35,901 nucleotides of DNA from Treponema sp. (GTDB taxonomy: Bacteria > Spirochaetota > Spirochaetia > Treponematales > Breznakiellaceae). Below, one piece after another: positions 5,233 to 32,100 of this stretch. The notes under the pieces are model-generated. The model saw nothing but the letters and a program-made list of their open reading frames with translations. It searched no databases and was not told where the DNA came from. The stretch lies in the NCBI GenBank assembly GCA_009778545.1, contig WRJO01000009.1:1-35901 (forward strand). The letters run 5' to 3'. Position 1 is the first letter of the stretch. Every line of letters starts with the position of its first letter. The position numbers and the translations under genes are program-made.

Positions 5233-5260
5233 ATTATATCGCACAAATAATTCATTACAA
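5233..5260 (-). promoter_or_regulatory. Putative sigma70-type promoter for G1 (TTGTAA-16 bp-TATAAT)
   Basis: Reverse strand: TTGTAA (5260..5255), 16-nt spacer, TATAAT (5238..5233), about 58 nt upstream of the G1 ATG. Confidence 0.45.
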
Positions 5261-5516: not shown

Positions 5517-5834
5517 ATGGCAGAAACCGATAATTCGCATGAAAACAACAATAAACTGCTCTCACAATTAACCAAAGGAGTGTTTTGGAGCAGTGATATT
5601 GATCAATTAGATTATTTGAGGGACAAAGAATATATTATTGAACAGATCATTGACGCAGGTTTGGAAAACGATGAAATAATCATGTGGAAACTATATTCCT
5701 ATGAAGATATAAAAAATATTGCTTTAAATATGGAAAATCTTCATAAAGAAAAAGTCACCTATATGAGTTTTGTATTAAAAGTCAAGGAGTCTGAATTTAA
5801 ATGTTACAAAAAGAAGCAGTGGTACCAGAAATAA
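5517..5834 (+). CDS. DUF6922-like small protein, probable antitoxin partner of the AbiEii-type nucleotidyltransferase
   Basis: 105 aa; pattern FW..DIDQLDY.RDKEYIIEQIID.G...., C-terminal ESEFKCYKKKQW. Strong AGGAGG RBS. Overlaps the downstream nucleotidyltransferase ORF by 34 nt. Confidence 0.75.
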   Translation: MAETDNSHENNNKLLSQLTKGVFWSSDIDQLDYLRDKEYIIEQIIDAGLENDEIIMWKLYSYEDIKNIALNMENLHKEKVTYMSFVLKVKESEFKCYKKKQWYQK

Positions 5835-6478: not shown

Positions 6479-6940
6479 CTATAGTTTGCTGTTTAAGTAT
6501 TCCTTGAAGTCAAATGTTTTTATATTCAATGATTTTGCATAATCGCACAGACTGGCATCGCCGGAAATTAATAAATCACAATCTGTAGCCATCATTAATA
6601 TTGAAGAATCAGTTATCCCCAGTGAATCAAAAAACCAATTTTCAGCTACTGTTTCAGTTTTTATGTATTTTTCCAGAGTTTGCTTAAATATTGTCTTTAC
6701 CAAAATCAAATACCTGTATTTGTCTTCACCTTGGATTCTGTTTAATATATTATCAACCTCTGTAAAAATATTGGGACTGGTAATGATTCTGTCATAATCT
6801 GCGAGAATTCTAAGGAGAAAATAATAGTCCTCTTTTGAATATAGGGAATTCCTGGTGTATCTTCCTATTTTATTCTCGTTTATCTGTCCAGCCAGAAACA
6901 AAATAAAAATATTTGTATCAATAATTACATCACGCATCAT
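6479..6940 (-). CDS. PIN-domain protein, probable RNase toxin
   Basis: 153 aa; MMRDVIIDTNIFILFL (first PIN Asp), TEVDN (acidic), DSSILMMATDCDLLISGDASLCDYA (C-terminal PIN acidic cluster). Confidence 0.8.
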   Translation of the reverse strand: MMRDVIIDTNIFILFLAGQINENKIGRYTRNSLYSKEDYYFLLRILADYDRIITSPNIFTEVDNILNRIQGEDKYRYLILVKTIFKQTLEKYIKTETVAENWFFDSLGITDSSILMMATDCDLLISGDASLCDYAKSLNIKTFDFKEYLNSKL

Positions 6941-7329: not shown

Positions 7330-8390
7330 TTAATTCCAGCGCTGGTCCTGCCAGGTTGGCCGGTAGAAGTATGCCAGGCGGAACCTGTCGCTGCCGTAAC
7401 CGACAGCGGCATGCCAGCCGGGCGCGGTTGAAAGCGTTCCTCCCCTAACAGTAGGCGGCCAAACCTCGATGCTCAGGCGGTCGTTGTTTACCAGGTAGTT
7501 CGACGGTACGGTGACCGCCTCCCATCCGGTAATATCGGCGCCAGTCACTGCATCTGTTAGCGGCCTGTTATCGAATCGTATTCCCGTAGCGGTACTTGCG
7601 TTGGTTCGATACGCTATGCGTGCGCCGTCGTAGTTGCCCACCCGCGATGTGTCCCCGTAGACTATCCAGGGGTTCCCTTCGTTGTCCACCGAGATGTTCG
7701 TCCACACGCCGCCCCGCACAACATTGTCCACGGTGTAGGCGGTAAATGGCTGATCTCTTGCGGTAGCATATGCGTAAACCAGGGTATTCCGGGAACTGTT
7801 CTGGAATGCAAGGTGTATCCCGTTATTTTTGTCTACCTTGATGCTCACAAACCTGCCGGAACCGCGGTAAAGGGGATGTGAGGGATCCAGTACATATTTC
7901 CTGGTCCAGCGGTTTGTCTGTTCAGCTGCTTCTCTATCTGCATAAGCAAGCCGCAAAGTATCGTTAGCTACATCGTAGTATGCGATTATTGGATAATTGT
8001 TACTGGTATAGTCAATCGCACTGAACAGTCCAGCATTACTTGAAGCGGCGATACTACCGGTAAAACCTGCCCCCGCAGTATTGCCATCAATTATATGGCT
8101 GTTAGCACTTCCCGTTCCCGTTCCAGGTAGCCTTCCATAACGCAGGTTGTTATTATATGCATCGTAAGTCACTGCATGGCTTTGACCATTGGACCTTGCA
8201 ACGCGGTTATGCTGGAAGCGTTTAGTAGGAGCAGGATTAGTAGCAGAGCTGTTGCTGCTAAAGACATTATTCCAGCTTCCAAAATTAGTACCATGACTAA
8301 TTACGAAGTTAGGATTTCCATCTCCTTCATAAGCATAAGCCATTGCGCCGCTTGCTATACTGCCATTGTAGAATGAAACGTCCGTCCCAA
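7330..8390 (-). other. C-terminal beta-propeller-like domain of G2
   Basis: Blade-like repeats: HAVTYDAYNNNLRYGR, PIIAYYDVANDTLRLAYA, IHLAFQNSSRNTLVYAYA, PWIVYGDTSRVGNYDGARIAYRT, HAAVGYGSDRFRLAYFYR. Confidence 0.6.
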
Positions 8391-11300: not shown

Positions 11301-14300
11301 TAAATTCTTCATTGCCGTTATAGTTCTTGGTGAACCAGACATACACCGAGTCGATGTCTCGGGGCGCGCCGGTGGTAAAGTTAAACGGCGAAGTAGAATA
11401 GTCAAACACCCTGCCCATAAAGTCCTGGTTGGTACCGGCGGCGCGTTTGTTGCTTTGTGACACGGGCCTTGGATCAGAAACCGGCGCAAAGTTGTCGATG
11501 CCGATGTCAAAGACGTAAATCGCCTCTGCCGGCGGGCTTGCGCCATCCCTTATCCGCACCTCAACGGGGTATCTGCCGCCAAAGTTGCGCCAATCGCCAT
11601 TCTTTACCAAGCTGAAAATGGCGTTGGAACTTCCAGTCTCCAGGCTGGTTCTGATGGAATCAAAATACATGTCAAAGTAGTAGAGCTGCCCTTCGGTTAT
11701 CGTCGTAATTTTTACGCCCGCCACATTGTTCCGAGGCGTTCCGGGATTTACCGGCGTAGCATGGGTATCCCTGTCCCATACCGTTACCCAGCTTCTGTTT
11801 TCTTCCTGCGGGCGCCTGATAGATATTTGGCTCAGATCCTGATCGTTTCCTCCAGAGTTCAGGGTTGCCCGTATCGCGAACTTATCTCTGAAAACATGGC
11901 TGCCCTGGCCAACGTAATCGTCGCCCGGTACCTGGTTTATATCCATTACGCTGCCAATTTTGTAGTCGCTTATTACTGGCGCACTGTCCTGCATAAAGAA
12001 TATCCGTATGTAGGGCATTGCCGCGACTTGTCCAGAAGGAAGTGATGTCAACGGTGTTCCTGGCGAACCTAATTCAGCTAAAAGTTCGGATAATATTCTG
12101 CCATCGTCACCGATGCTGATAATCGTTGCTGTGCCGTTGCCTCGGAAGGCAAATACCTCCATGTACACGCGGATCCTGTTGTTGTCGCCGGTGCCAGAGA
12201 ACCTAAAGCCCTGTGTATGGATAAGGTCTTTTATCTCATTCTGCGTGTTAAAGCTGAAATTCCACGGCATTTCATCCGATCCCTCCGGGGCCTCTGGGTT
12301 GGCATAGTACCAGCCGTAGGTGTCGTATCCGTTATCACGCAGGAGATTCAGCTCGGAAGGATCGTCAACCATCCGGTTTTCGTCAAAGGTAACGATACCG
12401 CCGGTACCAGGATCGGTATCCTGAGTAAGCCGGGTGTTGCCCGGAGGAGTAGTACTTGTTCTATCTCCGTCGACTTTTACACGGAATACCACGCTGTTTA
12501 CCGCCCAGTTGTTCCTCGCTATGCCGTCGGCGCTAATCGTGCCGCCTCGCGGTTCTTCAGGGCCGGAGTTCTGGGGATTAAGCACCGTAGTCCGGGGGAT
12601 GTCGCCGTCCGGGTATATCCAGATGTCGCGGCAGGTGTAGCTGATATTGCCCGCCTTGTCCGCAACGCGGATGTACAGGGGCATTCGAACTACGCCGGTC
12701 TCCCCTACTTCGTCCAGCAGTTCCTTTGGTACTGGAAGCGTCATACGCGGACTATCGTTGCTTATATTATAGTGTTTCCCCTTAATCCAGATTGGCTTAT
12801 CGTACTGTTTCAGACCGCCTACATCAGTTCCGATTGCTGGATAACTCCCATTTGACGGATTGTCAGTAGTAACCAGACCAGTTGGGCCTGGGTAACTCTG
12901 CGGAATTCGCATAATCCAGTCGTAGATGTTCGAATTGGCAATGACAAATCCGGGTGGCTCTGACACGCCGAACTGAAACCAGGCGTTTTTGACAGCAGGC
13001 TTTGCAGCAGCGTCAAAGAGTTCATTGTATTGGCCCCGGTCGCGCTCGGTCATCGAAATACCGCCTGGATATTTACCAGGGACAAGCGTATTGGCATAAT
13101 CCAAGACAGACCGCTCTATTTGCTGCTGTGTCGGGAATTTGCCAGTCGTCAGATTCGTTCCATCGTCCAGGAAGCCGAGGTGGTACCATATTGACTCAAC
13201 GCCGCTTTCGGTGCGGTTGTTGCTGGTGTCTCTGGTTGTTCCCCGTATTTCGGCATCTTCGCCGCCCATCACCACTTCGCTGGCATACCTGAATTCACCG
13301 GCTTCCCAGGGCCCAATGATGCTGCCTTGCCTGTTTGCCGAGGGCAAGGTAATGTCCGCGTCCGGGGGCCTGTTGTCCAGGGTAAAGTTTTTGGTAACAA
13401 CGTTTACATTATTTGCCATGTCCGTAGCGGTAACGCGTACCCGGTAATGACCGTCTGCGGCGGTGGTTACCGTAAAGGTCGCTGCCCATTCCTGCGAAGC
13501 ACTTGGCTGCAGATTCGCATTTGCCGGTAATATGTTTACGCCTCCCGCAGGGCCAATTCCCGGTACGGGAGCGGCTGCTGCGGTCTGGTCGATAATATCG
13601 ACATGGATGCTGCGGTACCTGTTCGCGTCATTTACCGTACCGCTGAATTTCAGTTCTCCTCCCTGGCTCACCGATGAATAGAAGCCCGCTACATCCGGCT
13701 CAAAGGCGATGTTGGGGTTGTTGCGATCGATGTAGAAGTACACGGATTGCGAAAGCGCCGGATTCCCCGTGCCGTCATTGGGATTCCAGTCGTCGCCAGG
13801 CGGATTCCCTATTACAGAAGAATCCTTCGCCCGAACCTGAATGCTGTACAGGCCCTCACTGCGCTGGAGGACGTTACGCCCAGTTAGAGGAATATCGGGA
13901 CCATCACGCTTGGTAATTTGCCAGATATTTGGTGTACCACCTGTTGCACTTACAACATCACCTGTATCCCATGAAGTTCCGGTATCAACAATTTCCCAAT
14001 CACCGGGATCTGGCCCGACATTGGTTTCTACCCACCATGTACCGTTATAGACGAACGGCATGTTGTAGCTCAGGTCCTTTGTCCACTGCACATTGGCAGA
14101 TGTTTTATCGCCAAGGTCGGTTATTGAACCCCATGGCTGAATAGTTACCCATTCCGCAGCAGCCCAGTTCCAGCGCGACACCTCGCTTTCCAGGGCGCTT
14201 ATGGCGCTGGTATCGTCGATAACGCTGCCCTGTATCCGCACGGTCTCGCTTGATATGCGGTTAAAGTAGCTGGTGTTACCGGTAACGTCGCTGGGGTTAA

Positions 14301-17300
14301 CGGTCGACGCGCCGGTACTCTGTACGCCGCTGAATCGTATTGCAGGGGCACTGGTATCTTTTGTGAATGTCCATACCGCTTCTTCGGACTCAAGATCATA
14401 TTCGTCAACGGAGGTAACGATTACATCAAAATGCGCCCCATTGGGCATTCTGGCGCCTTCGTACAAGGTACGGGGAAGATCGTATCTCCAATTCAGCACC
14501 ACCACTCCCGGCGGATTTGTTACTTCACCAGGTCCAAATGTCCAATCCGAGAGCGCGGTATTGTCAAAATTATAGCGCTGATCGACTATTACATCTCTGG
14601 GGTCGCTGGATGTGTTAACAATTCTCAGCCGCGCTTCCTTGACGTTGGCGTCGCTTGCCGTTCCCAAAATGGAAAAGACCGTCGTGCCAAAACCGCTGCT
14701 CCGGCCAAAGACCGTAGGCGCATCATTTATTGGAACAGGAGTTCCGGCAAGGATTATATTGCTAATCTCCGTTTCCGGCAGTTTTGAATCGATTCTGAAT
14801 GCGTACATGGTATCGGCGGCTAGTGTATTACCCGATTTATCGGAAATGGTAAACCTGATCGTATGGATACCGTCGGATAGCGCTGTCCCGCTTTGCGTTC
14901 CGTTATTGGTCAGCCAAATCTCCCAGCGGTAGTTCCTTCCTGTCCCGCTGACCGATTTTTTTTCATCAAAGCCTATTGGCGCATCATTACCATCAAACCA
15001 GTACATGAATGTACTCATGTCAACATCAGAATCATCGTCGTCGAAGGTGCCGGTCAGCACCGGTTTCTCGTTAGCATCGGCATCGTAATAGATCACCGAT
15101 AGCGGACGCAAAAGATCCCCTGTATTAATGTCTCTCGCGTTCAGCCAGGAAAGTTTTCGCCTGTTCCACATTTCGTCCCATTCATCGCTCGTCAATCCTG
15201 GGGGAACTGAGGGTATTGGAGGTTGCACCCACCAGTTTCCAACGTTCCCCAGGTCAACGCCGGCAGCCGGGTTATGAGTAACGGATGGCCATGTGGTAAT
15301 GTTGGTGAATTCAAAGTTCGGCGGTTTTTCGTCCTTAAGGAATGTTACCGTGGCGGAGCCGGTCCTGCCCGCCGCATCCGTTACAGAAATGGTCAGCATG
15401 TGCGTTCCTGAATCGAGGGTTTCGTACCGTAACATTCTCGCGCCCTCATCCGCAGGAATGCGGAAGTATATTCTTTCTCCGTTAGTGGGAGTACCAGCTG
15501 GCTTATTGCCCCACGGGTCACTAAATGGTGAAGCACTTACCCAGGCAAGGGGCAGTGTTTCGGTTTCCGTTTTTTCCCATGATTCAAGGCGGTATTCTAT
15601 ATGGTACCTGCCATCATCGTCTGTTACCAGGTTTACGTCCTCAAAGAAGCCGGTTATGTACATTTCTTCATTTGCTTCCCTTCCAAACGCCTGGTTTGTT
15701 TCCGGGTAGTCAATCCTAACGGTCGGCGGAACCGTATCATAGATGAAGGTGAAGTGCTTGCGCCTGGCAACCGTTTCGGGCCTTGCCGTTCCCCCGGCGG
15801 GAGGGGCTATTTTGCTATATGACGCATCTGTAGCTTCGATGATGATGTGCTTGCGGCCATTGCCGCTTCCAACAGCACTGGTAACGCCCAGTTGGGCGGC
15901 GGTAAAGAGTCCTGCTTGATCACTCGTTTCTATCAAGCGTGCGCCGTTAAAATTGATGTTTTTGCTGCCAGACTGGCCGAGCATGGAAACGGGGACGGTT
16001 ACCGGGCCGATATAGCCCACAGGCGGATTTGTGGTATATATGCCTGTAGCGGCATTATATGTGCCAAGATGGGTGTCATCGTAGGTATAACTGTCGGTAT
16101 CATTGTTACGCAGCCATACCTTTACCGAACCTTCCACGATGTTTTCGCCTTCAAGGAAACCGTCGTCCTCGAAGATGGTGCCGCGCAGGATCATGCCGTT
16201 GTCGCTTACCACCATGTCATTGCTGGGGGTGATGTTTCCAAAGTACGGCCTGTCCTCTTCCTGCAAGAGGAATACTTCCTGGTAGATGCTGGAGGTGGGG
16301 CGCTTGTTTGCGTCTTCCGTATACCGGGAGATGTTGCCCGCCGCGTCTATTGCTATTATGTGCAGACGGTATTCGCCGTCGGTTGCCAAAAGCCGTTCGG
16401 TATCGATCACAACCCGGCGGCTTCCCGACAGGCTTATCTCGCCGTAAGCGCCGCCCAGCGTGCCGCCAGGCAAGTAGTGGACAACGCCCTGCTCGGCATA
16501 GGCCGATTCCTTCGACGGGTATGCGTCGAATTCCAGCACCCTGCCGCCGGATGCGCCTATCAGGGCGTTCGCCGCCGAACCGGGATGGGCAAGGGCGGCG
16601 GATCCGTTAGATCCGACATTGGCCGGCAGGAACCACCAGCGGAGTCCTGCCACCCCAAAGTTGTCGTTGTCGGTAATGGTAAAGCTGATAACCTTGTTTG
16701 CCAGCCTGCGCTTGTTGACGGACTGGTAGGCAGAATTGTCCTCATATTGGTAGCCGACAAGGATCACGTCGTCTACGTCCCGTTCAAAGGTTTCGATCCG
16801 CCGGCTCAGGCCCACGGTGGGCGGCTCGTCGTCGACGGAGTACCGCATCTGCAGGGTGGCGGGCTGGCGGAAACGATCGATGAACACCGTTTCAAAGGTA
16901 AAGCTGCCCGAACGTCCGCCCATCCTGATGGGTATGGAGAAATCGTATTCCCATATGCCCAGGTTGGCGGTGTTTCTGTCCAGTACCGTTATTGCGTATT
17001 CCGGTTCACCATCTTCGCCGACTGTGCCGAACTCAACGCCCGGCTGGCCGGTGATGTCGGTCCTTCCGTCCTGCAGAACGCGCAATCCCGTAATTTCGAT
17101 GGGGCCGTTAACGTCGCTGACTTTGCCTTTAATAAACACCGTTTCCGTTGCGGAGATAAAGTCGCCGGTAGCGGGCGTTAGCGAGTTATTGTCAATAGTC
17201 GGCGGGGTGTTGTCCACGGCTATCCAGAACGACTCTGTCCGCGTTGCCGCCGTGGCATGGCGGGGATTTTCCGGCATTATAAGTTTGATATCCGGGGCGG

Positions 17301-20178
17301 TGTAATCGGAAACGCTGATCGTTATCCTATACAGGCCGTCGGGAAGGCTTTGGAAATTGTGCTTGAGCGATTCGGCCGGTATCGGGGTTACCGATTCCGC
17401 ATCGGGCGCGCCAAACAGGTAGTTGTAATTCCGGTTGTTTTTTAGATGGGTGAGCAGCACAAACTGGTTTATCGTGGCATCCCGCTCGGTTACGGCAAGG
17501 CGTATCCTTTGACTGCTGTTCTGGGGATCGGCGTGGGTTTCCTGCATTCCAAAGGCGGCCTTTACTTCCGCCTGGCTCATGCTCATCTGGTATCCCGGCT
17601 CGTTCCAGGGCTCTATCGCATCGCCGACAATGTGGGAACCAACCATGCTTACCGAAACCGACGAAATTCCTACCGCACCGACTCTGGAATCGCCCAGGTC
17701 CAGGCTGTCGTCGTCGTTCAGCCGCAGGGAAATAACCGAATTCGGCCCGAATTTATTGCGAATGGCGCTTCCCGATTCAAAGCTGATCGGTTCGCCGTTT
17801 ATGTCCTCTGCGCCGAAATTGGGGTCTTTAACATTTTCGTTAACGGCGCCAACCCGGAAATTGAACCGGGGCTTGTCGGATTCCTCGCTGACCAGGATCG
17901 GAAAGGCCCTGTACCCGACGTTAAACGCGTTGTCGCGGGCAAACACATAGATCCAGTACTTGCCGTCGTCCAGTGTGTCGTCTTCCGAATTGTCGTAATA
18001 AATGGTGGAGGTTTTAATAAGGCAGCTCGAGTCGAAGATCGGGCCGTCTTTAAGGATCGGTATTGAGCCGACAGACTTCAGTTCGCCGCGCGAAGCAGGA
18101 ACGGGAAGCCAGGGGTTGTTGTTTCCGAGGTAGCCCTCCATGGCATCCTTTTCGCCGTCATGGATAACGATAAAACGCTGTTCATAGCCGTAGTGCTCGT
18201 CATCGTCGCCATCCCTCACAAAGTATTTGGACGTAGCGGTGCGAATGCGGGAATCTTCGGGACGCAAATCGGAAATCTGGAACTGCGGCCTTATCACCCC
18301 GTTAACCGTATAGACGGGGTTGTCCGGATCATAGGCAGACAGGTCTTCGGGAATTTCAATGTAGCCGCCCGTCATCCTCTGAAGTGCGATCTCGGGCGCT
18401 ACCCTGTCAATGGAAAGGGTAAAGGTAAAGGGAACGTAGTTCAGCGTATTGGACATGCCGCCTCGGGCAAACACCGATATCGTGTAGTTTCCTTCGGGCA
18501 GCACGCCAAGGTCGCGCCATTCCTCCGGCGCGCTCCGTTCTTCCAGGTAGTACGTGTCGATGCGGGGGCTGCCGCCGGTGAGCCAGACATCGCCCATGTA
18601 TTGCTGTATCTTGGAGCGTCCCGCTACGGAATTGCCGCCGCCGTTGGGCGACAGGTTGCTGCCGGTATCGGTGTGGGTAAAAATAAAGCTGCGGATGGTC
18701 GGGGGCGTTTCGCCGGTTGCGCTTGAGTGCGGATCGGCAAGGCCCCAGCTATTGTAGTGGGTGTTAATAATGGGGACGGTGGAAATCGCCGGAAAACCCG
18801 GATGCTGGGTGCTGTCCGCGCGATCCCAGATAAAGCGGCCTTTTTCGCCGGTGTCTTTTTCGTAGTATATCGCCGCCGAATTAACCCCCTCGGAATGGGT
18901 GGTCTTGATGCGAATCTCAAAGGGGCCCCTCTTGTGCGACGCGAGGCGGTCGACGTATACATAGTCTCCGTCCAATTCGTCCTCGTTCAGGGGCACGTTT
19001 TGATAGTGGCCTGCGGTTTCCGGATTTGGCGGGGGAACCCATCCGTTAAAGTTGGTAATGTCTTCGAGCTTCCACAGTTCCAATATGGGGAATTCATCCG
19101 GGGCGCGGACGTAGATAATCACAAAGCTGTTTTCAGTCTGCTGTTCGCGCGTAAGAAGGTCCCATTCTTCTTTTGACCACGAATCTTTCGGATATTCAAA
19201 GACCGTGCCGGGAATGTCTCGGCTCTGCGCCCTAATCTGGAAGCCGTAGTACCGGTCGTTTACGACGGGTATCGGGTAGGTAAACTGGATGTTGTTTACC
19301 CCAAGGTCGGTAAGCGATCCTTTATTGGAAATTAATTCCCAGGGAAGCTGATCCGTAGTGGGAACGCCGTCCCGCTCAACGTTGAAGATCGGTACGCCAA
19401 GGTGCGAAGGCCCCTCGTCGTCGTGGTGGTTTAGCTGCCAGAAGCGAATCTGCGGGGGGAACGTCTCGATCTCGGCGCCTTCGTATTCCTTGGTGCCGGC
19501 AAGGCGGTTAATTCCCTGGCTGTCGGTGATCATGCCGACCATAAGCCCGTCGGAGTCCATCACGCGGGGAAATGCCGCTTCCGGGAACAGGATGTGGTCA
19601 TAGTTCAGATTTTTGCTTCCCAACTGGCCTTCCGCTGTGCCTTCGATTACCGGCGGAAGGGCCATGGTTATATGCGGGGGGTCGTTTTTGATGAAGAAGG
19701 CTATTTCCTCGGTTTCGACCGGCTTTTTCTGCGCATTTTTGGCAATGTCTTCGTCCCATACGCGGAGCTTGACCTTGAAGTCGCCGTCGTCAAAAACCCT
19801 GGTGTCGATAACCAGGCGCCAGTCGGATTTCTGAACGCCCAGGTTCATCGGCAAGTCGTACCAGCCGTCATTACCGTAATAGGGGTTCGGCAGGTCGACT
19901 CCGCCTTTGGTCAGAGTCGGGCCGTAGTTGGTGATCCGTATCTGCGCCCCTGCCAGCTTGTAGTCGTCTTCGGCTTCGCCGAAAAATTCCCAATCGCCCC
20001 AGATAAAATCGCCGACCACCGGGCTTTCCAGGGTGATAGTCGGAGGCCGGATATCGACGACGCCGCCCAAACCGGCCTTGAAGGGCTGTTCGCAGGCGAG
20101 CATCGCCAGCAATACCGAACCGATACCGAAATCACGGATAATTTTTTTGACTGCCATCATGGTAATATTCCTTTTCAT
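7330..20178 (-). CDS. Giant repeat lipoprotein G2 (4282 aa): lipobox, Ig/cadherin-like beta repeats, TIG-like segment, C-terminal beta-propeller
   Basis: Uninterrupted 12.8-kb ORF; MKRNITMMAVKKIIRDFGIGSVLLAMLACEQPF; GGGAGGGG RBS; recurrent DNTPPT / DTVPPTV / DTSAPAI / DNRPPDA Ig-like strand signatures; AYYDVANDTLRLAY-type propeller motifs at the C-terminus. Confidence 0.95.
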   Translation of the reverse strand: MKRNITMMAVKKIIRDFGIGSVLLAMLACEQPFKAGLGGVVDIRPPTITLESPVVGDFIWGDWEFFGEAEDDYKLAGAQIRITNYGPTLTKGGVDLPNPYYGNDGWYDLPMNLGVQKSDWRLVIDTRVFDDGDFKVKLRVWDEDIAKNAQKKPVETEEIAFFIKNDPPHITMALPPVIEGTAEGQLGSKNLNYDHILFPEAAFPRVMDSDGLMVGMITDSQGINRLAGTKEYEGAEIETFPPQIRFWQLNHHDDEGPSHLGVPIFNVERDGVPTTDQLPWELISNKGSLTDLGVNNIQFTYPIPVVNDRYYGFQIRAQSRDIPGTVFEYPKDSWSKEEWDLLTREQQTENSFVIIYVRAPDEFPILELWKLEDITNFNGWVPPPNPETAGHYQNVPLNEDELDGDYVYVDRLASHKRGPFEIRIKTTHSEGVNSAAIYYEKDTGEKGRFIWDRADSTQHPGFPAISTVPIINTHYNSWGLADPHSSATGETPPTIRSFIFTHTDTGSNLSPNGGGNSVAGRSKIQQYMGDVWLTGGSPRIDTYYLEERSAPEEWRDLGVLPEGNYTISVFARGGMSNTLNYVPFTFTLSIDRVAPEIALQRMTGGYIEIPEDLSAYDPDNPVYTVNGVIRPQFQISDLRPEDSRIRTATSKYFVRDGDDDEHYGYEQRFIVIHDGEKDAMEGYLGNNNPWLPVPASRGELKSVGSIPILKDGPIFDSSCLIKTSTIYYDNSEDDTLDDGKYWIYVFARDNAFNVGYRAFPILVSEESDKPRFNFRVGAVNENVKDPNFGAEDINGEPISFESGSAIRNKFGPNSVISLRLNDDDSLDLGDSRVGAVGISSVSVSMVGSHIVGDAIEPWNEPGYQMSMSQAEVKAAFGMQETHADPQNSSQRIRLAVTERDATINQFVLLTHLKNNRNYNYLFGAPDAESVTPIPAESLKHNFQSLPDGLYRITISVSDYTAPDIKLIMPENPRHATAATRTESFWIAVDNTPPTIDNNSLTPATGDFISATETVFIKGKVSDVNGPIEITGLRVLQDGRTDITGQPGVEFGTVGEDGEPEYAITVLDRNTANLGIWEYDFSIPIRMGGRSGSFTFETVFIDRFRQPATLQMRYSVDDEPPTVGLSRRIETFERDVDDVILVGYQYEDNSAYQSVNKRRLANKVISFTITDNDNFGVAGLRWWFLPANVGSNGSAALAHPGSAANALIGASGGRVLEFDAYPSKESAYAEQGVVHYLPGGTLGGAYGEISLSGSRRVVIDTERLLATDGEYRLHIIAIDAAGNISRYTEDANKRPTSSIYQEVFLLQEEDRPYFGNITPSNDMVVSDNGMILRGTIFEDDGFLEGENIVEGSVKVWLRNNDTDSYTYDDTHLGTYNAATGIYTTNPPVGYIGPVTVPVSMLGQSGSKNINFNGARLIETSDQAGLFTAAQLGVTSAVGSGNGRKHIIIEATDASYSKIAPPAGGTARPETVARRKHFTFIYDTVPPTVRIDYPETNQAFGREANEEMYITGFFEDVNLVTDDDGRYHIEYRLESWEKTETETLPLAWVSASPFSDPWGNKPAGTPTNGERIYFRIPADEGARMLRYETLDSGTHMLTISVTDAAGRTGSATVTFLKDEKPPNFEFTNITTWPSVTHNPAAGVDLGNVGNWWVQPPIPSVPPGLTSDEWDEMWNRRKLSWLNARDINTGDLLRPLSVIYYDADANEKPVLTGTFDDDDSDVDMSTFMYWFDGNDAPIGFDEKKSVSGTGRNYRWEIWLTNNGTQSGTALSDGIHTIRFTISDKSGNTLAADTMYAFRIDSKLPETEISNIILAGTPVPINDAPTVFGRSSGFGTTVFSILGTASDANVKEARLRIVNTSSDPRDVIVDQRYNFDNTALSDWTFGPGEVTNPPGVVVLNWRYDLPRTLYEGARMPNGAHFDVIVTSVDEYDLESEEAVWTFTKDTSAPAIRFSGVQSTGASTVNPSDVTGNTSYFNRISSETVRIQGSVIDDTSAISALESEVSRWNWAAAEWVTIQPWGSITDLGDKTSANVQWTKDLSYNMPFVYNGTWWVETNVGPDPGDWEIVDTGTSWDTGDVVSATGGTPNIWQITKRDGPDIPLTGRNVLQRSEGLYSIQVRAKDSSVIGNPPGDDWNPNDGTGNPALSQSVYFYIDRNNPNIAFEPDVAGFYSSVSQGGELKFSGTVNDANRYRSIHVDIIDQTAAAAPVPGIGPAGGVNILPANANLQPSASQEWAATFTVTTAADGHYRVRVTATDMANNVNVVTKNFTLDNRPPDADITLPSANRQGSIIGPWEAGEFRYASEVVMGGEDAEIRGTTRDTSNNRTESGVESIWYHLGFLDDGTNLTTGKFPTQQQIERSVLDYANTLVPGKYPGGISMTERDRGQYNELFDAAAKPAVKNAWFQFGVSEPPGFVIANSNIYDWIMRIPQSYPGPTGLVTTDNPSNGSYPAIGTDVGGLKQYDKPIWIKGKHYNISNDSPRMTLPVPKELLDEVGETGVVRMPLYIRVADKAGNISYTCRDIWIYPDGDIPRTTVLNPQNSGPEEPRGGTISADGIARNNWAVNSVVFRVKVDGDRTSTTPPGNTRLTQDTDPGTGGIVTFDENRMVDDPSELNLLRDNGYDTYGWYYANPEAPEGSDEMPWNFSFNTQNEIKDLIHTQGFRFSGTGDNNRIRVYMEVFAFRGNGTATIISIGDDGRILSELLAELGSPGTPLTSLPSGQVAAMPYIRIFFMQDSAPVISDYKIGSVMDINQVPGDDYVGQGSHVFRDKFAIRATLNSGGNDQDLSQISIRRPQEENRSWVTVWDRDTHATPVNPGTPRNNVAGVKITTITEGQLYYFDMYFDSIRTSLETGSSNAIFSLVKNGDWRNFGGRYPVEVRIRDGASPPAEAIYVFDIGIDNFAPVSDPRPVSQSNKRAAGTNQDFMGRVFDYSTSPFNFTTGAPRDIDSVYVWFTKNYNGNEEFININNGSRSSQAGSAVFRNTTGTFLINREVTVEPDDGNPTVIALDQQGDRNDLVAAGSRIAYPAVAAGENAAYATAGGWVRHINESLARPGSRMLWIPNRNWDITWVLNIDTTVMPDGLITLNYVVTDKAGNASYHTQENIFIRNRYPQIDRVTLYTDNDGIGAVYTTHDTVNIASTEFILENHRDTMFTNRTGGSNYEPLWADDYGYLNSGFISKNEFVGFRIESSLGNDPMSYRLQYVERGSYEAGSWVPNEPMKLTRDNLELMIANKNSASPAYSNVYTIAWQGDYNSNRWQAIGAPTPDTPIGTHFVLQVNNIGTNSTDDNYIPDSTACVWSYRPIANLSRTIEGLERTDPNGIYNLPVLPNDWDSPIEPGHGFNFQGSDCFEPDGLNDRIGELNGSYPGDAVRNDPTQTAFFLIKAWDRVNDDEEEDGQLYDAVVIGMNVYLRDIEEPTIRLYDLNPYTETEVTGNNVTEESRKTTMENALFPRGIGENILRGGLYNVNTERELLSSGHVEPRNGTGALQPMVKNTLGRYDMLPADGFVEGVDRPENTYYNGTSIVNVTRDMVSGKVILRGYAHDNQLIREIRVHIGEDPSDDLHNVNSSAGKDMAILRIDEDAEKTITQGGETIRNPLFGILQPVPGKNASVYQELHWKDGHSVEWAYVWDTEIEPNDDGSPAGNIGIWVAVIDQLGNNKNGLASSNTEVQYDPTFSSNGVPSSETFKNMMRVDIVPYITGFLRYGYTPLTPEEWDNPSPRYATRRSRQGWFSFFRGENNIAIQGYNLLGGTMPANPLRILSGTGGATVVNLDIASDPEPTVNRIVFNVPNTANSGQIVLNTGATVGGSTEALNHRSNPNRSWNSEYNFFTAGSDLWTNKPHVHIWRSQQNDPGPGSGTSTEAPRTVFGSVTATTQPQNGFGLGRPAMALEYTGTDSGRLTGVWDVYGAANVYYGRNGGDAGSSIYSGLPNEPYVGTDVSFYNGSIASGAMAYAYEGDGNPNFVISHGTNFGSWNNVFSSNSSATNPAPTKRFQHNRVARSNGQSHAVTYDAYNNNLRYGRLPGTGTGSANSHIIDGNTAGAGFTGSIAASSNAGLFSAIDYTSNNYPIIAYYDVANDTLRLAYADREAAEQTNRWTRKYVLDPSHPLYRGSGRFVSIKVDKNNGIHLAFQNSSRNTLVYAYATARDQPFTAYTVDNVVRGGVWTNISVDNEGNPWIVYGDTSRVGNYDGARIAYRTNASTATGIRFDNRPLTDAVTGADITGWEAVTVPSNYLVNNDRLSIEVWPPTVRGGTLSTAPGWHAAVGYGSDRFRLAYFYRPTWQDQRWN
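8630..9125 (-). other. IPT/TIG-like segment plus conserved SDLW...VHIW junction in G2
   Basis: PYITGFLRYGY...GENNIAIQGYNLLGG...VVNLDIASDPEPTVNRIVFNVPNTANSGQIVLNTG..., then AGSDLWTNKPHVHIWRS; mirrored in G3 (PYITGFVRNKD...GEAVVVQGFNLGTSGQTVTI...; DGSDLWEDFTAVHIWQS). Confidence 0.5.
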
Positions 20179-20193: not shown

Positions 20194-23100
20194 TTACTTC
20201 ACGTAATACGCAATCCGGAAATAATCCGGGGCCAGATAGCTCACAGCGCCGCTCCAGAACTTTGTCGGCGGACTTGTACCGGTAAGCGGCCAGTTCCGCG
20301 TCGGGAAGCACTCCATTCCGGTACGGGCGTTCTCCACGGAATAATCCGTGGGAACGTGCATGGTTTCCCATCCGGTGATCAATGTCCCGTACATGTCATT
20401 CAGGGTCTTGGTAAACGCCGTATTATTGCGGTATGCCATTTTTACCCCGTCTTTTGAGCCGGAGTAGCTTTCGTCGTGATAGGCGATCCACGGATTCCCG
20501 TTTACATCTATCGAGATGGTACACCAGCGCCCAACGTCGCCCACGTTGTCCACTACCTGGACGCTGCGGTCGGTAAAGGTAAAGTCAGACGGGTTAATAA
20601 TGCCGCTTATATAGACCAACTTTTTAATGTTGGCGTTTAATGCTGCGATGTGAACCCGGTTTTGAGAGCCGCCTCCCGGCCGTGTGTCGATCTTCATGCT
20701 CACGTACTCGCCCGTACCGAATTGGTATATTCCCCTTGGAACTACTTCATCTATGATCCTCCAGTCGTCTGCCGTAGTAGGCGTCTGCGAATTGCTTATC
20801 GCCATCTTGAGCCGCGAGTTGGTCGCGTCGTAGTAGGCGACGACCGGACACCCGTCGCTGGTAACGGCGATGGCGTTGTGGAAACCGGCGTTAATCCGGT
20901 TAACCGGCCTTGTATTCCAGTTAACAATACGCTGGAACGGCGCTCCGACATCTGCATAGGAGATGATATACACCCTGCTGTTATTATCGGGGATCGTATA
21001 CATGAAGTCACCGCTTAGGGTAAAGACATTCGTGTTGTTTGCAACCTGGTTTGTATACAACCCGGTTGTTGCATTGAAATTGGCCGGCAGCAAACCGGTG
21101 ATGATCCCGTCAAACGGCGCTTTTATTTCTGTGGTTGGAAGCGGAGGAGGATCGGAGGCATTAATTCCGCTTGCGCCAAAGGTATAGATCACCTGGCCTG
21201 CCGTTACAAACGAGCCATTGGTAACATGCGTCTGTCTAAGGAAGTTGTATGCCGGAGAAGTAATGGTGTATACGTTTACGTTATTGGCAGTAACGGTGTT
21301 AAAGGTTCGGTTTGGCGCCGTTGTTCCGGATACACTGCTTACCGATAACAAACCGGTAATAATTCCATCACGCACCGCCGTAACCTCATGTGTGGGAAAA
21401 TATTCTGTTGGAGTTTCGCCCGCTACACCGTAGGTATATATCAGATCCCCCTCCCTGACAAACTGGTTATTGGAAACATGTACCTCGCGAAGGATATTTT
21501 GCCCGGCTGGGGTTATTGTAAATAAAGTGGTGGCGGGGGCACTTGTAGTGAATGTACGATTCGGCGCGGTTCCGGTTGATGCAAATGTAGCATAATAATT
21601 GGAAACAATTCCGCTAATCGGGGCGGTTAATACTAACTCGGAGGCTGTCGTATTGTTTTCTGCCGCAACTCCGATTCTAAACAGCACTTCGCCCTGGTTT
21701 ACCCAGCGTGTATTCGCAATGTTGGGGTTCCTGTACCGGACATAGTTTGACTGCAGAGTGGGGGTAATACTGAGAAGGTAAGAGGTAGTGCCACTCCTTG
21801 TATTTGTAAAAGTACGGCTCCCCGCCGTACCCGTCCATGTAACAACATTGGCATTTACGGCGGAAGTCCAGTTGCGGTTGCCTCCCTGGTTAGCCGTGTT
21901 GTTCCAAATTCTGTTAATCGTTCCGTCAAACGGCGCCCGTATATATACGATGTTGGCGGTGTTGATTTCAGCTGCACGCCCAAATTCCATAATAACATCA
22001 CCCTGTTTAACAACATCGCCAGGATGATAATAAATAGCGCGTGCATAGTTGTTTTGATTTGTGCCGGAAGTGTTAATCGTTTGGTTGCTTCCAATAGCCT
22101 GATTTAAAGTGTAATTTTGCTGGCTTGCACTTGCGGGAACGCCCAGGCCGTTATTAAACGACGCAATGGTATAATTAACCGCAGTTCCCGCCGTCGGAAT
22201 GGCGCTGCCATAGGCCGCCTGAAGCGTTCTTGCCTGAGCGGTACCCGACGTGGTAAGCGCGACATTGTTGTTTGCAAGCTGAAGTGTCGGCGTAACGGTC
22301 TGGCCGATGGTGAAGACATTATTGGTTCCGGTTCCTAATTGAGTGGAATAATTTGTACCGGACATGGGAGCATTAAGGTACACAAGTGTAATATAGCCTG
22401 ATGCATTAGCCACAACTTGAGTCTGATTTGTAGTAGTTCCTTGAGCCCGCTGGCCAAATGTATATATTAAATCACCTTGGTTTACCCACTGGTAATTTTG
22501 GACATGCACCTGGCGTAAGTATCTGTAACCTGCAGTACCATTGCTAAAAGTACCGGTAACCGTTGGACGGAATAAAGTCGTATAATCCAGCGTTATGCTT
22601 CCGTCCCTTCTGGCGGTAATAATCGTTTCCGACGCCGTATCGGCAGGGTTCCTCGTCGGAGCGCCCAGCCGGTATACCGGCTGTCCCTCCGTTACATATT
22701 GCCCGTTGGAAACGTATATCTCCCGGATGAAACGGTTGCCGTCTGCCACATCATTGCCTTTATTCGCTTGATTAAGGGTAGACGATTCCGGAATCAGCTC
22801 GCCTTCATTCTGGTCTTCCGCGTCCCATGCGCCGTCCAGATTGATCCACTTTCTGATATCCTCGTTTTTACCCAATGCGGTACTGGCTGTCTCGCCGCTG
22901 GCGGATATTGTCCCGGGCGCGCCGCGCGTATTCATGCGGTACTTAATCGAGTGATCCTTGGTGTCGTAGTAGCTAACGTGGATGTATTCATCGGTCCCGG
23001 AAACATGGGTAACAATGTGGGGGTTTTCGAACTGGTCGGTGCTGGACGGATCGGTATTTCCGCCGGGCCTGTCTGCTGATGTTGTTACCGGGCTTCTGTT

Positions 23101-26100
23101 CGAAGCATTATACCACGTCTTTTCGATAAGATAGTGGCGAATTGTATTTCCCGCTATAGTCACATACGGCGAGTTGGAGCTGCCTGTACCATTGCTCAGA
23201 CCAGACGTTGCACCACCCGGCCCTGCAGCGTATATACCGCCCAGGTGTTCCCATTCCTGACTGGTGGCGCTTCTGCCAATAATACTTGAAACGCCCCACG
23301 GACTCGCGCTTGGACTATTGCTTGCGGTGCCGCCGGGGCTGAAGTAAATGTCAGACATGATAATTGGGTCGACAAACTCAAGAACGTTATTGACTGTAGA
23401 CCTTGGGTTTCCCGCCCAGGAGACGTTGTTGTTGGTGATCATCATCGTACCGTTGTTATAACCGAATTGGCCATAACCACCGCCGCCTTCGTTCGAACTG
23501 GACCATAGCGTACCGTCTCTCGGATCAATTGTCATGGCAGGGTTTTCGACAACCCAATTTGGCCTCCTCGTTGGGAACGCGCCCTGGTCGGGTCGAACCG
23601 TTGCAGCGGTATCAGGGCGGAAGTCGTTCGACTGCCAGATGTGTACGGCGGTAAAGTCTTCCCAAAGGTCGGAGCCGTCGATGCCCGATCGTTCCGTGTT
23701 CCAGGGCTGCACCCAGTGCCGCCCCGTCATTGATTGCTGCAGGACGGTACCGTCGGCGTTCAGCAGGGGCCGCTCGCCAAAGTTCTGGTTGCCAATTCTG
23801 GAATTAATCGCATAAATAGCGCTGGTTCCGGTTCCATTCCTGAGCATTACCGTTCCGTCTGTCGTTCCCGATCCTGCTGCGGCGCTCGTTGTCGCCGTAG
23901 TGGGTATGGTTAGTATCCGGTAGCGGTGCGGGAGGCTGTTAGCATTCGAGGGGAGGTCGTAGGCGTTCTGCTGGTTGGTAATGGCGGTTGTCGTTACCGC
24001 CAATTCTCCCGGCAGAAGGATCGTAACCGTTTGCCCGCTTGTGCCAAGGTTAAAGCCCTGAACCACGACCGCTTCGCCCCTGTTGAAAATATACCTTCCC
24101 TGGAGTGAGCGGGTGTTGTGGCGGAACAGATCCTTGTTCCGTACAAAGCCCGTTATGTAGGGCCGCAGGTTCATCGAAATGGAGTTGTACTTGTTCAGCC
24201 CGACGGGGAAGCCAGGGTTCTGAATCTCGTAATTTAAGAGGCCAGAGGTAGCATGGGCTGGTCCGGGAGCGGTAACTGACGCGCTTACCTTGGCTGTCGC
24301 CGAGGATACGCTGTGCCGGTTATATGCCAATACGCCGACATTGGTTGATCCAACTATTACGCCCGAGGGTATTGCCTCGGTGTCCCAGATGTACGCCCAT
24401 TCCACGCGGTGGCGGTACAGGTCGATAGAATCGCTGTAGTACACCCGGCCGCTGGCATTGGCATTCGTTGCCGTTCTGAGTAGGCCCGTAGTGGGCGGGA
24501 TAAAATCGTATGCATCGCCCGGATGGGGTTCTGTGCCGGTGGGATCGCGTTCCAGTATCGTTACCGTCGTTCCGCCGATTACCAGGTCTACCCGCTCTAT
24601 TTGCTGGTCGTCCTCTACATACCCCCGCAGCACCACCTGGCCGCTGACCGTATCCGTACCGAGGAATCCCACCGGGTTGGCCCAGGGGCTGGTATCGCTG
24701 TGCCGCTCCCGGTCTAAAACGCCGCCCATTTGAATGCTGGTAAGGCTGTGCTGGTTTACGGTGTATGCACTTCCATAGCCCGCACCGTTCATCCTTCGTG
24801 GCTCTATGTGGCCCAGCCGGACCACGCTGGGGAATTGGTCGTTGTTGTACAGGCCGCCCTTGGTGCGGTTGCTGTTGTTGGGTCCCTCGCCGATAAACAT
24901 CGGCGAAACAGAGCGCTGTATGGTCTGCCTTCGAGTCTGTCCCTCGGTCATGGGGTTAAGGTCGTACAACTGGGAGAAGGGCCGCGTTACGTCGTTGTTG
25001 TTCACCCGGATGCGGATAAGGGCGAAGTCGCAGAAGAGGTCTTCTTCGATGCCGTCAAACACCTTGAGTATGAATAGCGAATGATCCTGCGGCGGGTTGG
25101 ACGACGTTGCCGGCGGCCATGCATTGGAACCGGCAAAGTCGATGATGCTGTTTCCAAAATTCGTGCCAAAAGCCGCGTTAGCGTAGGAGAATTCTGCGCT
25201 GCGGGCTTCTGTAATTTTAGTAGGCGTTGACGGAGGAGTCGGGCCTGAATATGGATATACCGCGTCGGGAAGATTCAGCTCGGGGGGTATTGAACCGGAA
25301 CCCTTTTCTATCCAGGTATCCGGGGTCGTCGAATCTGGGCCGTAATAGGCGCTGTTCAGTTCCCATGCGGAACCGGTTCCGCTTACCCTGGGGCCGTTAA
25401 TAGACTTGCCGTCTACGGCAGCCATAAAGGCATAGCCGCGAGACCAGGGGCCTTGTCCTTCTGCGCCCAGACCGCCCCAGTTGACGGTTCCCGGATCGTC
25501 AATAATGTAGATTCGTCCCGCTTTAACATTGGCGAGTTGTGCATTTGCCAGCCTTGTCGAGCCGGAGACGTACTCAAAGCGGAACTGCCTGCTCTTTCCC
25601 TCCGCTGGCGCATCGGTGGTTTCGATTCGCAGGGCCAGCAAATTATTGCGGGCGTTAAAGTCTATCACCCGGTCCACGTTCAGCGCGGAAGAAGAGATGT
25701 AGTCGCTAATTCCCTTGGAAACATCCCATTCAATGTTGGGATATTTGCTATCAGGGTATTGCGCTTCAAATTCATCGCGTATCTGGTCAAGAATAATGCT
25801 GCTGAATACCGGTGTGCCATCTGCAAGGATTCCGGTAGTTACGCTCCTGGTAGTAATTGCGCTGAAATCGTGTTTCTCGCTGATGGCGGTGCCCAGCTTT
25901 ATCCGGTCGATCAACGGGGCGTTGTTCATGATTACCAGCGGTTCCTCGTAGTACCGGGCGTTGCCCGCCTGGTCGAACACCACAAAGTGCATCGTAACGG
26001 GGCCGGAAGTAAGGCCGAGCGAGTTAAGCTCAACGTACCAAAGCATACCCGAGCCGCCGACGCTAAAGCCCATCGGCAGGTTATGGCCGTGGTGGTTGGA

Positions 26101-29100
26101 ACCAACCGAGGGATTGTTACGGTCGATGACAATGGCATAATCGCCGCCTGTTGCAAATTGATTTGCAGAATTCAGCTCTCCTGGTATGTAGGGCACCTTT
26201 AATTGCTTATTATCCCATGATTGATTAGGAATAACGCTGCCTTTCAAATTGGCTGCCCAGTCGACATCTTCGGAATTAACACTATGGTCACTGGTTAAAA
26301 ATTCGTCAATTGGAGGGTGGAAAAGAGCATTTCCCTTTGTAATTTCATTCTCGTGCCAGGAAACGTATTCTCTGGTACGGCTGCCGCTCTCGCCTACCAG
26401 CCTGGAGAACCACAGCACCACACGCGCAACGCCGGACACCGGCCCGTCGTCGGCGGCTTCGCCGCCTACCGGCACCGAGATGCCGGCGGGCCTCCGGTTA
26501 AGGGTGTAGGTCGCAGTCGGCGCATGGTGGTCGATGGGCAGGAAGGACGTGCGCGAAGCGGTGAGCGGCGTCGAGCGGGAAATGTCCGACGCGCTTAGGT
26601 AGATCGGGTACTGCACGGAGCCTGGTACCTGGCCTTCCCTTCCGGGAACGTTTTCATCGCCATAGCCCAAAGTGTCCAGATAATCTACCAGTTTTTGCGT
26701 GTTAACATCCACGGTAACAACCCAGAGGAAGTAATCGTCTACCATTTCGAGCGCTTCCCCATCAAATGTTCCGCTAGCGTACTGGAAGATTGTACCTCGC
26801 TTATTATCCTGCGGTTTTAATGGTACCGATGCTCCGGTATCTTCATCATAAATAAACAAAGCTCCAGGATCAGTTGTCGGTTCCCAAATATAGAAAAAAG
26901 CATTGGGGTTGTAATTGGGACCTGAGGGGTTATAAACATAGGCATTTTTAACCAAGGCGCCTGTTTGCGTATAACTCGGATGCGGTTCTGCTTTTACCGC
27001 CATGGCAATATCGGGGGAGGTTAGTGGAACTCCTGTAAGGTAATAATCATAAGTGCCTGGACCTGTCTTTTCAAGGTAATCCTTGTCAAGGACATTAATG
27101 GACATACCAGGGGTCGATCTAAAGCCGCCGATGCCGCCGTTCATGGAAGGGGACCATTCGGTTTTAGTCCAGCGAACCGCGCCGATACCATTTTCGCCCT
27201 TTACTACGATGCGGTACGAGGCGATTCCACGAATGTTCATTTCGTTGATGCTGCCCCAGAACGTGGCATCTTTACTGGCGCCAAGGGAAATGTATTCGTC
27301 CTCAAAGATAGGCGCTCCCGCCACTACAAAGGCGGTAACTTCCCTCTTCAGGCTTAATAGGCCCGGTCTGTCCGGATTGGTAGACGACAGCCACTTGTCA
27401 TTCTCGTTGATCCAGGATTCATTTTCGGTAGTATCCTCGGCGCGCACTTCGATGGTGATCCTGTTTGCGCCAAGATCGCCGCTTTCAAGCTCGCCCTGGG
27501 TGTTGATCATCGCCCACCAGCTTGCGACGGAATCGGTGTCGCCGCCACGGTTTGCCATGTACCAGCCGTCGCCGGGGGCGTCGCCTTCGCGATAACTGCC
27601 GATTTTATCTTCTGTCTGCGCCCTCTGCCCTGGGTTCAGCGAGCCTGGTTTTGTCCAGTCCGTTTCGTCCCATTCCGGGATAGACAGGTTGGTATAGGGG
27701 AATCCGTTATCGTCGAGCACCCTGAACCACACGTTCCTGATACGTTCGTTGTCCCGCGCCTGGCCGGATATGCGGATGCTGCCGTTAAACTGGCGTTCCA
27801 TTTCGATGGCGTTCATGTCGGGATTGCGTATTACTGATACCACAGGCCGGTCGCCTTCGGGGTAAATCCAGTATGTACATTCTTTTACCAGTTCATTTCC
27901 CGCCTCGTCCACTACGAGGATGTAGACCAGTAACTTGCCAACATCCATTCCTTCAGGAATTTTTTCACCGTTGTATAAAAGGCTGGTGGATCCAGTGGTA
28001 ACACTCCATTGCACATACATATCTATATTTGCGGAATCGGCTGTCAGGAAGTTTCTGGTATTGGGTATACGCAGGTCCCAGGTAAAGGTACCTTCATCCA
28101 GCTCCATTAGCGTAATGCCGTTCTGTATAAGGGCGCTTGGCGATCCGGGGCCTTCGTTGTACAGCCAAGTACTGGAGGCATTCGGCGGTGCATAACCGCT
28201 GGCTTTGTTTGGCACATAGAAGGCGATTCTGCTAAGCATGCTCGAATTGTCATCGGCGTTGCCCTTGATGTTGACCCTGCCGGTAACGGCATCATCGCCG
28301 CCTTCGGGCGTAACGTCAAGTTTTGGCTTTTCGTTATCAAGGATGAACTGCTTGGTGTTGTTGATCGTCGCCTGTCTGCCCGCGCCGTCAAACACGTAGA
28401 GCCGCAGCGTAAATGCCCTTGGGCTGGTTGTCGCATCAAGATAAGCTCCTGTTGACGAGCCGCCAACTTTCATTATAGGCCTTACTGTTACCTCTAATGG
28501 GTTATCCTTGTCGGCTCCCATGTTGGCAACTAAATCATACTCAAGCATATTTTTGACTTCAGTAATATCCTCACGGCCAAGCCCATCAATCACGATTCCG
28601 TTTTCATTCAATATTTCCGCTTCAATCCTTGCGATGGTGTTAATATCGCTCACATATAATTTGAAACCGGTACTGTCAATATATGCATTATTGAAATACT
28701 GCTTATTGTCAGTTTCGATATCAAACGTTATTACCGGATCGGCAATGTCAATAAAGAACTGGCGTGAAAGTGATCCAACGAGGGTATTGTCGCCGGTAGT
28801 TTTATTATCGCGGGTATCGAGCGGATTGCCGTTGCCAAGCGACCAGTCTTTCGCATACAGGTCTATCTTGTACCTCCCCTCGTGCTTGCTGTTATTGGTA
28901 AAGAAGTCTGTTGGATACAGGTTCGACGCGGTTAGCTGTTCCTGGGTAAGGTTCCAGTTTACCGATGTTTGCGCGTTGGTTTGATTATATGCGGGATTCG
29001 CCGGGTTGGGGTTGAGCATACTCGGCCATTCGCCTGTAGGCGGTTGGGCCGTCAAGCTCCATTCACCAGTACCGGTGTTGTACCAGAACCAACGATTGTC

Positions 29101-32100
29101 AGTATAACTCCACTTAGCAATGCTGTACCACAGATCGCGTACTTTGGTATCGTCGCTAACGACGCCGGTTAGCGAAACGTCGCCGGTACCGAAAACCGTG
29201 CTTTCTGCACCTGCCACAAGGTTCATATACTCAACAGTGGGAGTTTCGCTATCAAGGTAGAAATTCCATGTTACCGGGGAAATTCTGCGGCTTGCTTTGT
29301 CCGTAGCCGTAACGCTGACAAAGTGGCGGCGGCTGTTATTGTAGTCAGGCCCTGGCCCGCGCAAAGCTGTCACATCGGAGGCAAGAATTTTAAGCACCCA
29401 TGTATATTGGGGCCCTTCTCCATTGGGATGATCGTCGGTGATAGGTCCTGTTCCTTTTACCGTTAAGCGATAATTACCATCAGAATCTGGATTGCCTCCA
29501 TTAGCGGCAGTATCATGATTTCCCGACTCATCTTTATTAAGGTCATATTTAGCGGTTCTTGTGTAACCGGCCGCGCCTTCCTGCGAGATGGTTATGCTTA
29601 CGTCGCGAAGGTTATGCTCATAGATTGAGCCTCTCAATTCAAAAGCAGAAATGCCAATTAGGGGGGCTGCGTACACAGAACTGAATACACGCTCGGTTTC
29701 TGTGGGCAGCTCTGCCCATGTTGTCGGCGCGGGGTTAGCTTCAAAGTGCTGGGGCGCGGTCTCCGCTGTATGGATCACCCCTTCAAACCCAAAGTGAGGG
29801 GCCGCCCTGTCGAGCAGGAATTCCAGGCCGTACAGTTCGGACCAGTTCCCCGCCCTGTCCTCCATTTTAATGTCCAGATAATTCAGGCCGTCGATAAGTC
29901 CGGCAATATCGCCGATGTTGATAACCCAGTTGGCGGCAGAAGGCCGTTGGGTGCCAACGACGCCTTCAATTGCTTTTGGCGTCCAGTTGGGATCATCCCT
30001 GCCATTGCTTTTAGTTCCAGACCGTATGCGGTAATAGAAATTTGTGGTTTGGGGTTCACCGGCTGCGTTCATAATCCGCACGGGGGACAGTTCGTCCTGG
30101 AACCTTCCCCGGATTACCGGCTTATCGTAATCGCCATTATCGAAAACAACGCTCAGGTTTGCCGTGTTCGTGCGGTCATTATCCAAAGCGGTAATAACAT
30201 TGACCGGAGTTAGGAAGGCGTACTCGGACGGCCAGTCTCTGATGGTATTTTGCCACGCGGTGGTCCAGCCGGGGAGAGTGCCGTCGCCGTCTTTCCAGTA
30301 GTATGCCGTGTTTCCGTCAGGCAAGGCAGTTCCATAGGGCCAGTCGGAAGGCCAGGTTTGCCCCTGCGTTGCGCCGCTTGCGCTGCCGTTGGGGAAGGCT
30401 GCGACAGCAGGACTGGGAGCATGGCGTATCGCTCTGGTTATGTTTGTAGGAATGATCTGGGGCCCTTCGGTGTCCTTGGAGAACGACCATACGATGCTTA
30501 CGGGGTTTCCGGCGGTGTCGTAGGCTTCCAGCGTAACGCTCTGCGTTCCCTGGGGTGTCAGCGGGGAATCGAACGCGGCAAGGTATGCCCTGAATTCCGC
30601 TTTTTTATCATCGGGGGGCCATGCCTGAACCGTGCCGGTTGTGGGCCTGCCGCTTAACAGCTCCAGCGGCTGCTGGGTGCCGTAGGTTATGCTTAGGAAT
30701 TCCAGGTTTGCCTCATCCACCGTTCCGTTTAATTCGGCGATAAGATCGTTGAGCGTCCGGTAGGTGGGGCGCGTAGAACGGTAATTGGGGTGCTGGTTTT
30801 TATCGTTGTTGGGAGTGGGATCATAGTGGTTAAAGCTGATTATCGGCGGCGAAATGTCCAGGGTGAATGTGTACCACCCTGACCCTTCCGGGCTTACATG
30901 GGGGTATATTCTGAAAACCTCGCCGATATAGCCGGGGTCATTTTCCGTGTCGCCGTCGGGGTTTTTGCCAAAGTGGGTCTGCACTGCGGGAGGCGGCGGC
31001 GGGCCGTCCGGCTCGTCGGTAATTTTAAGCTGGTAGCGTTTTTCGCCGTCAAACGAAAAGTAGCCGCCAAAACGGGAATCGCTCACGCCGCCGTGGGCAT
31101 CAAAGTCGAAGCGGAAATTTAACACCCCCGCCGGATCGATGGAGCCGGGAACGGGTATCCAGCCCGCTTCAAGGTCGGAGGAGAATGCCCAAACGCCCCC
31201 ATTATTCTCGGGGAAGCGTATCTGCACATAGCGGTTTTCCGCAGCGCCCGCTGTCGCGCTGACTTTGCCGGGATCAAAAAGGTCGTCGTCTTCGGCTTCT
31301 CCGCTAATCGCCAGGCCGACTACGCCCCTAACGCTTTCGCCTGTGGTGCCGTTCGGCGGGAACAATGTGCGGGCGAAGAACGTGGGATAGTCCGAATCCT
31401 GGTCGACGGTGAACGACAGCGCTGCCGGCGTGTTGCGGTTGCCCGCCTTGTCTTCGGCAATCACATAGAGGGCGTAGGTATCTTCGTCTTTCAGGAAGGT
31501 GGAATTGAAGATCGCCTGGAACCGCCCACCGGGCAGGGCGTCGTCAAAGGTGAACCATCCGCCCGCTCCGTCTTCTCCGGTGTCGAAATCGTCGTCCCAG
31601 GCGGGTACCGGGTTGGGGTTCGCCGGGGTAACATGGCGTACCCACCACTTAACGCCGGCATGGTTATCGTCAAATTCCGCCAGGCCGTTTTCATCCGAAG
31701 CGGTAACGATAAAGGGGACTTTGCCGTTTACGACATTGTCGCTGCGGTTGTTGTTGAATTCCACAATGGTAACTTCCGGGGGCTTAGTATCAACCTGCAC
31801 CGAACGTTCCAGGATGTAGGCATTGCCGATGCTGTCGTATGCCTCCAGGCTGTAGCGCCTCCGGTCGGAAGCAAATCCGGCTACGGGGCGGCTAAAGTCG
31901 ACGCCGGACCCGTTCCAGTCGTACGCCCATTCGTAGACAAAGAAACCATCGCTGTCCGGCTGTGCGCCGGCAACAGGCTCAAGGACCAGTTCCACCTGGG
32001 GGCTGGCCCTCTCGTTTGTCGTAGTGCTTATTATGTCGGGGGTAAAGGAAATCCACAGCTTCTGTACGCCGAGGCGGCTTTTTACCGTGCCCTCGATTGG

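Follow-up and report, generated by a model that had tools for sequence, protein, structure and literature searches.

Six diverged barrel-sandwich repeats in a propeller loop of a predicted giant lipoprotein from Treponema sp.

The window analysed here, a 35,901-nt stretch of contig WRJO01000009.1 from a 68%-complete Treponema sp. assembly, encodes a giant predicted lipoprotein in which a series of internal repeats had been noticed. The locus raises the question of whether these repeats are genuine copies of one unit, to which fold family they belong, how they are built into the host protein and what they might do there. The organism may have come from a termite gut, judging from its closest named relatives (L064 and L065), whose isolate names were read as termite hosts.

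The host ORF (4916 aa; 34944..20194, reverse strand) begins with MFRFTKKAFFSLSAVFVILGVFLSCENPF, in which a hydrophobic stretch is followed by FLSC, read by eye as a predicted spirochete-type lipobox. Pfam matches to the ORF included Ig-like domains (Big_7, 7.4e-10) and Biotin_lipoyl_2 (1.9e-15), and its C-terminal domain is a beta-propeller bearing the inserted repeats. It is adjoined by a paralogous giant lipoprotein of 4282 aa (20178..7330, reverse strand; ORF call and alignment; Pfam Big_13, 5e-16), the propeller end of which aligns with that of the 4916-aa protein and lacks the insert, providing an internal comparison. A third giant lipoprotein (FLSCENPF) is represented at 1-5244 on the reverse strand by its first part, the propeller end being removed by the end of the contig. 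Between the giant lipoprotein genes, a DUF6922 ORF and, next after it, one for an AbiEii-like nucleotidyltransferase (5517-6448, forward strand) are likely a type IV toxin-antitoxin pair, and an ORF at 6482-6940 (reverse strand) with a weak PIN-domain match (0.0062, below cut-off) is possibly another toxin gene. Giants were observed as adjacent same-strand pairs in several genomes (the window, G000:C4, G028:C112, G007:C3 and G022:C8); in unit-bearing pairs the units are confined to one partner and the other has none.

Six units were delimited in residues 4070-4645 of the host (22737..21010, reverse strand). For each unit, a profile of the remaining units was used for scoring, and 999 shuffles of that unit served as the comparison. 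On the reverse strand the units are R1 at 22737-22537 (44.0 bits, best shuffle 12.1), R2 at 22524-22297 (58.2 bits, best shuffle 14.6), R3 at 22053-21757 (35.8 bits, best shuffle 12.4), R4 at 21750-21505 (41.9 bits, best shuffle 11.5), R5 at 21501-21256 (62.5 bits, best shuffle 9.3) and R6 at 21249-21010 (62.9 bits, best shuffle 13.1). All six therefore scored above every shuffle (35.8-62.9 bits vs. 9.3-14.6 bits for the best of 999). The units are 67-99 residues long, R3 carrying the longest internal insertion, and the closest pair is R5-R6 (pair score 146, z 20). In the alignment the units are 26-39% identical to R1, which indicates that the array is neither a recent expansion nor an assembly stutter. 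A T/N-rich spacer of 77 residues (22284-22054, reverse strand) separates R2 from R3; it was considered as a seventh unit and rejected, as two unit profiles gave it negative bit scores. The six diverged repeats that the original prediction had placed at 20980-22740 are thus present, and the consensus proposed for them, N-[FY]-[LVI]-R-x-[VI]-[HY]-V-x-N...[TEV]-[IV]-x-A-[PR]-x-[DS]-G-I-[IV]-[TS], is correct in substance.

The fold family was addressed by profile searches in both directions. Four Pfam models matched the array above their curated cut-offs: Biotin_lipoyl_2 (PF13533, 7e-21), Biotin_lipoyl (PF00364, 2.5e-6), Peptidase_M23 (1e-7) and HlyD_3 (2.6e-6); the NCBIfam models RND_mfp and type_I_hlyD gave matches below cut-off. 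For the reverse search, a profile built only from the units of the window and of its relatives served as the query against 395 spirochete genomes. The giants themselves ranked first, followed by EAMKM biotin carriers, HlyD/RND-like adaptors and an RnfC/NqrA-like ORF, families that were assigned by eye from sequence. A sequence search of the PDB returned a chance match only. A significant profile match to the biotinyl/lipoyl/HlyD families, which had been set as a check on the fold, was thus obtained with Biotin_lipoyl_2, and the reverse search agrees with it.

The array contains two lysines in its 576 residues, neither of them at the biotin/lipoyl hairpin; in the reverse-search alignments the hairpin position of the biotin carriers corresponds to 'TFG...' in the units, without the lysine. 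The modified lysine (EAMKM/DKA) had been predicted to be absent, and no hairpin lysine was found in any of the six units; as judged from these residues, the array should carry no biotin or lipoate. The Peptidase_M23 and HlyD_3 matches could also be taken as a sign of M23 peptidase or HlyD/RND efflux-adaptor domains that have degenerated and yet keep their original activity, which is very improbable. The Biotin_lipoyl, HlyD and M23 families have the barrel-sandwich motif in common, which accounts for the Peptidase_M23 match. Neither the HxH nor the HxxxD zinc-binding motif of Peptidase M23 was found in the array, the full-length HlyD/RND adaptor models of NCBIfam scored far below cut-off on it, and no helix was present across it in either of two AlphaFold models, where the array part was coil or of low confidence. 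Both the catalytic M23 and the efflux-adaptor readings were rejected, the motifs being absent and the context unsuitable. By sequence, then, the units are read as barrel-sandwich domains that act neither as carriers nor as M23 peptidases or efflux adaptors.

The setting of the array in the host was established by alignment with relatives, which places it between 'WINLDGA' and 'NAIAVTSDG'. The propeller blades C-terminal of the insertion lie at 20898..20197 (reverse strand) and were matched by profile A2 at 2.2e-122, a profile built with the window sequence included. In the AlphaFold model of 1173 residues, the part after the insert forms four-stranded blades (block pLDDT about 77-90 across the first ~140 residues, a few loops excepted), and the top Foldseek matches of the host model were beta-propellers, among them glycoside hydrolases, sialidases, lectins and paraoxonase (best E 3.7e-4). 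As modelled, the host domain is a beta-propeller with four-stranded blades. Taken together, the insertion-point alignment, the modelled blades and the propeller matches place the array in the loop by which the last strand of a blade is connected to the first strand of the blade after it. It is accordingly inserted in an inter-blade loop of the C-terminal beta-propeller and does not belong to the rod; among relatives the copy number of the insert differs.

The repeats themselves were not given a confident structure by either AlphaFold model: a two-unit model reached pLDDT 52 and pTM 0.43, and the array was coil in the 1173-residue model. Foldseek ranked pyruvate carboxylase/BCCP first for the low-confidence pair model; biotin carriers made up most of the matches, with AcrA and CusB lower, none passing E 0.001. 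In R1 the closing strand that the other units have is either absent or degenerate, and the first strand is weak in most units. Together with the strand exchange described between units of RNA polymerase SI3 (PMC10802570, PMC11515920), this would suit an arrangement in which the repeats are half-motifs that together form a single structure, continuous or strand-swapped, like that of cyanobacterial SI3, and not six separate domains. Such an arrangement is nevertheless unlikely, because single units occur alone: a lone unit lies between the propeller parts in L068, L112, L064 and L044, so that one unit can stand by itself, and Pfam Biotin_lipoyl is covered over most of its length on some isolated inserts. 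In addition, a single biotin carrier (BCCP) from P. horikoshii matched the low-confidence pair model in Foldseek with a TM of 0.64 of its own length.

The distribution of the units was followed at the same loop in relatives. A first scan of the genome contigs with the array gave no matches. A two-unit query run on the genome that contains the window matched this locus only, and a longer query also matched a related giant on contig C4 with one diverged unit. The propeller family was found in 69 of the 395 sampled Spirochaetota genomes (E <= 1e-15); most of the ORFs concerned are 2000-6500 aa long. Units are absent from the loop in L106/L069, L071, L107-L109, L016, L041 and the close Treponema relative G028; there is one in L064 (Treponema sp. 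Emb289P3bin37), L068 (Brucepastera parasyntrophica), L112 and L044, and probably in L117; there are two in L072, L110 and L111; and six, the highest number among the loci examined, only in the window protein. Searched in isolation, 7 of 10 inserts matched barrel-sandwich families in Pfam, two of these above the curated cut-off and the others more weakly, and shuffle tests backed most of the relatives' units. In L072 and L110 the second unit was weak alone when both loci were left out of the model; it was accepted because it lies next to a clear first unit and because the two second units resemble each other. The inserts of L115 and L078, also considered as barrel-sandwich units, were not supported against shuffles. 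When the window lineage was left out of the training set, R4, R5 and R6 scored 8.6-16.1 bits, values reached by 1-3 of 999 shuffles, so that the window units, taken one at a time, are modestly linked to the distant inserts.

The finding of 0, 1, 2 or 6 units in the loop marks it as an insertion site with variable copy number. Two further observations were made on the sampled giants. In five Treponema loci (L079, L080, L082, L089 and L093) a distinct, mutually similar insert (GDxIALL...EYGxYKI) lies just ahead of the same propeller segment. Contig LIUJ01000092.1 (L066), labelled Fibrobacteria bacterium GUT77, encodes giants close to these Treponema proteins and is probably mis-binned.

Mapped on a tree of the propeller, the presence of units requires seven changes (gain or loss), at least three of which are forced by well-supported branches. 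So patchy a pattern, in a loop that is empty in some relatives (G028 among them) and occupied by inserts of unrelated kinds in others, would suit an array that is tolerated filler, the loop being a permissive hot spot at which functionless units are gained and lost neutrally; the unrelated inserts agree with such filler as well as they do with a functional arm. The filler reading is rather unlikely, given that the reading frame is open and the core fold motif kept in all six diverged units and that single units persist in distant spirochetes.

The explanation that we prefer is that six non-modified barrel-sandwich domains sit in a propeller loop of an Ig-repeat lipoprotein and act there as an arm or cap; taken as a whole it is probable, with considerable room for doubt. 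Its anatomy, meaning the repeats, their family and the insertion point, is very likely. A unit that was already in the loop would have been duplicated in frame several times over to give the array. The lipidated N-terminus and an Ig-like stalk of ~3700 residues would keep the propeller head away from the cell, and the array, set in a blade-to-blade loop on what is usually the ligand-facing side of a propeller, would project from that side. There, as a non-catalytic arm or cap, it may make contact with a partner or extend and shield the binding face. This arm or cap function is the weakest step, and belief in it falls slightly short of disbelief. More tentative again is the generalization that the propeller loop of the spirochete giants takes barrel-sandwich domains as interchangeable, expandable and tunable surface contact arms; if true, a fold from metabolism, efflux and RNA polymerase would have been reused as envelope architecture.

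This fold is known mainly from metabolic carriers, efflux adaptors and inserts in RNA polymerase; the locus extends it to a case that is associated with the envelope and probably exposed at the surface. The occurrence of 0, 1, 2 or 6 units in one loop offers a natural series for asking what the array does, and the complete genome of a named strain with one unit, Brucepastera parasyntrophica RmG11 (NZ_CP084606.1), should make the protein experimentally accessible. The original prediction knew of no described lipoprotein with such an array, and a search of the open-access literature yielded no envelope lipoprotein with a barrel-sandwich array.

Among known systems, pyruvate dehydrogenase E2 has up to about three tandem lipoyl domains, which are cytoplasmic, lipoylated, joined by flexible linkers and not set in a propeller. 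The units share their fold family with BCCP and lipoyl domains (Biotin_lipoyl, Biotin_lipoyl_2) by Pfam and the reverse search; unlike those carriers they have no hairpin lysine, possess an extended second half, are predicted to be extracytoplasmic and are inserted in a propeller. With the HlyD/RND periplasmic adaptors such as CusB and AcrA they have in common a barrel-sandwich in an extracytoplasmic protein (here a predicted one) and an HlyD_3 match above cut-off, but they are not split by a helical hairpin, and the full-length adaptor models do not recognize them. The closest parallel in organization is the SI3/SBHM/HABAS insertion of the RNA polymerase beta' subunit, likewise a loop-inserted barrel-sandwich array with lineage-dependent copy number and no cofactor (PMC10802570, PMC11515920): the SI3 of E. 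coli contains two SBHM copies and that of a cyanobacterium eight (PMC10802570), and the cyanobacterial type of the polymerase has nine additional HABAS insertions (PMC11515920). The barrel-sandwich assignment made in the original prediction holds for the fold family; its statement that such domains normally occur singly or split by a helical hairpin needs correction, as arrays are known in SI3. The SI3/HABAS insertions are cytoplasmic, belong to RNA polymerase and have units that are partly strand-swapped and nested, whereas the host here is the propeller of a predicted envelope lipoprotein. The principle of tandem barrel-sandwich insertion is thus already known from RNA polymerase, and its envelope lipoprotein version appears new with respect to the open-access literature searched.
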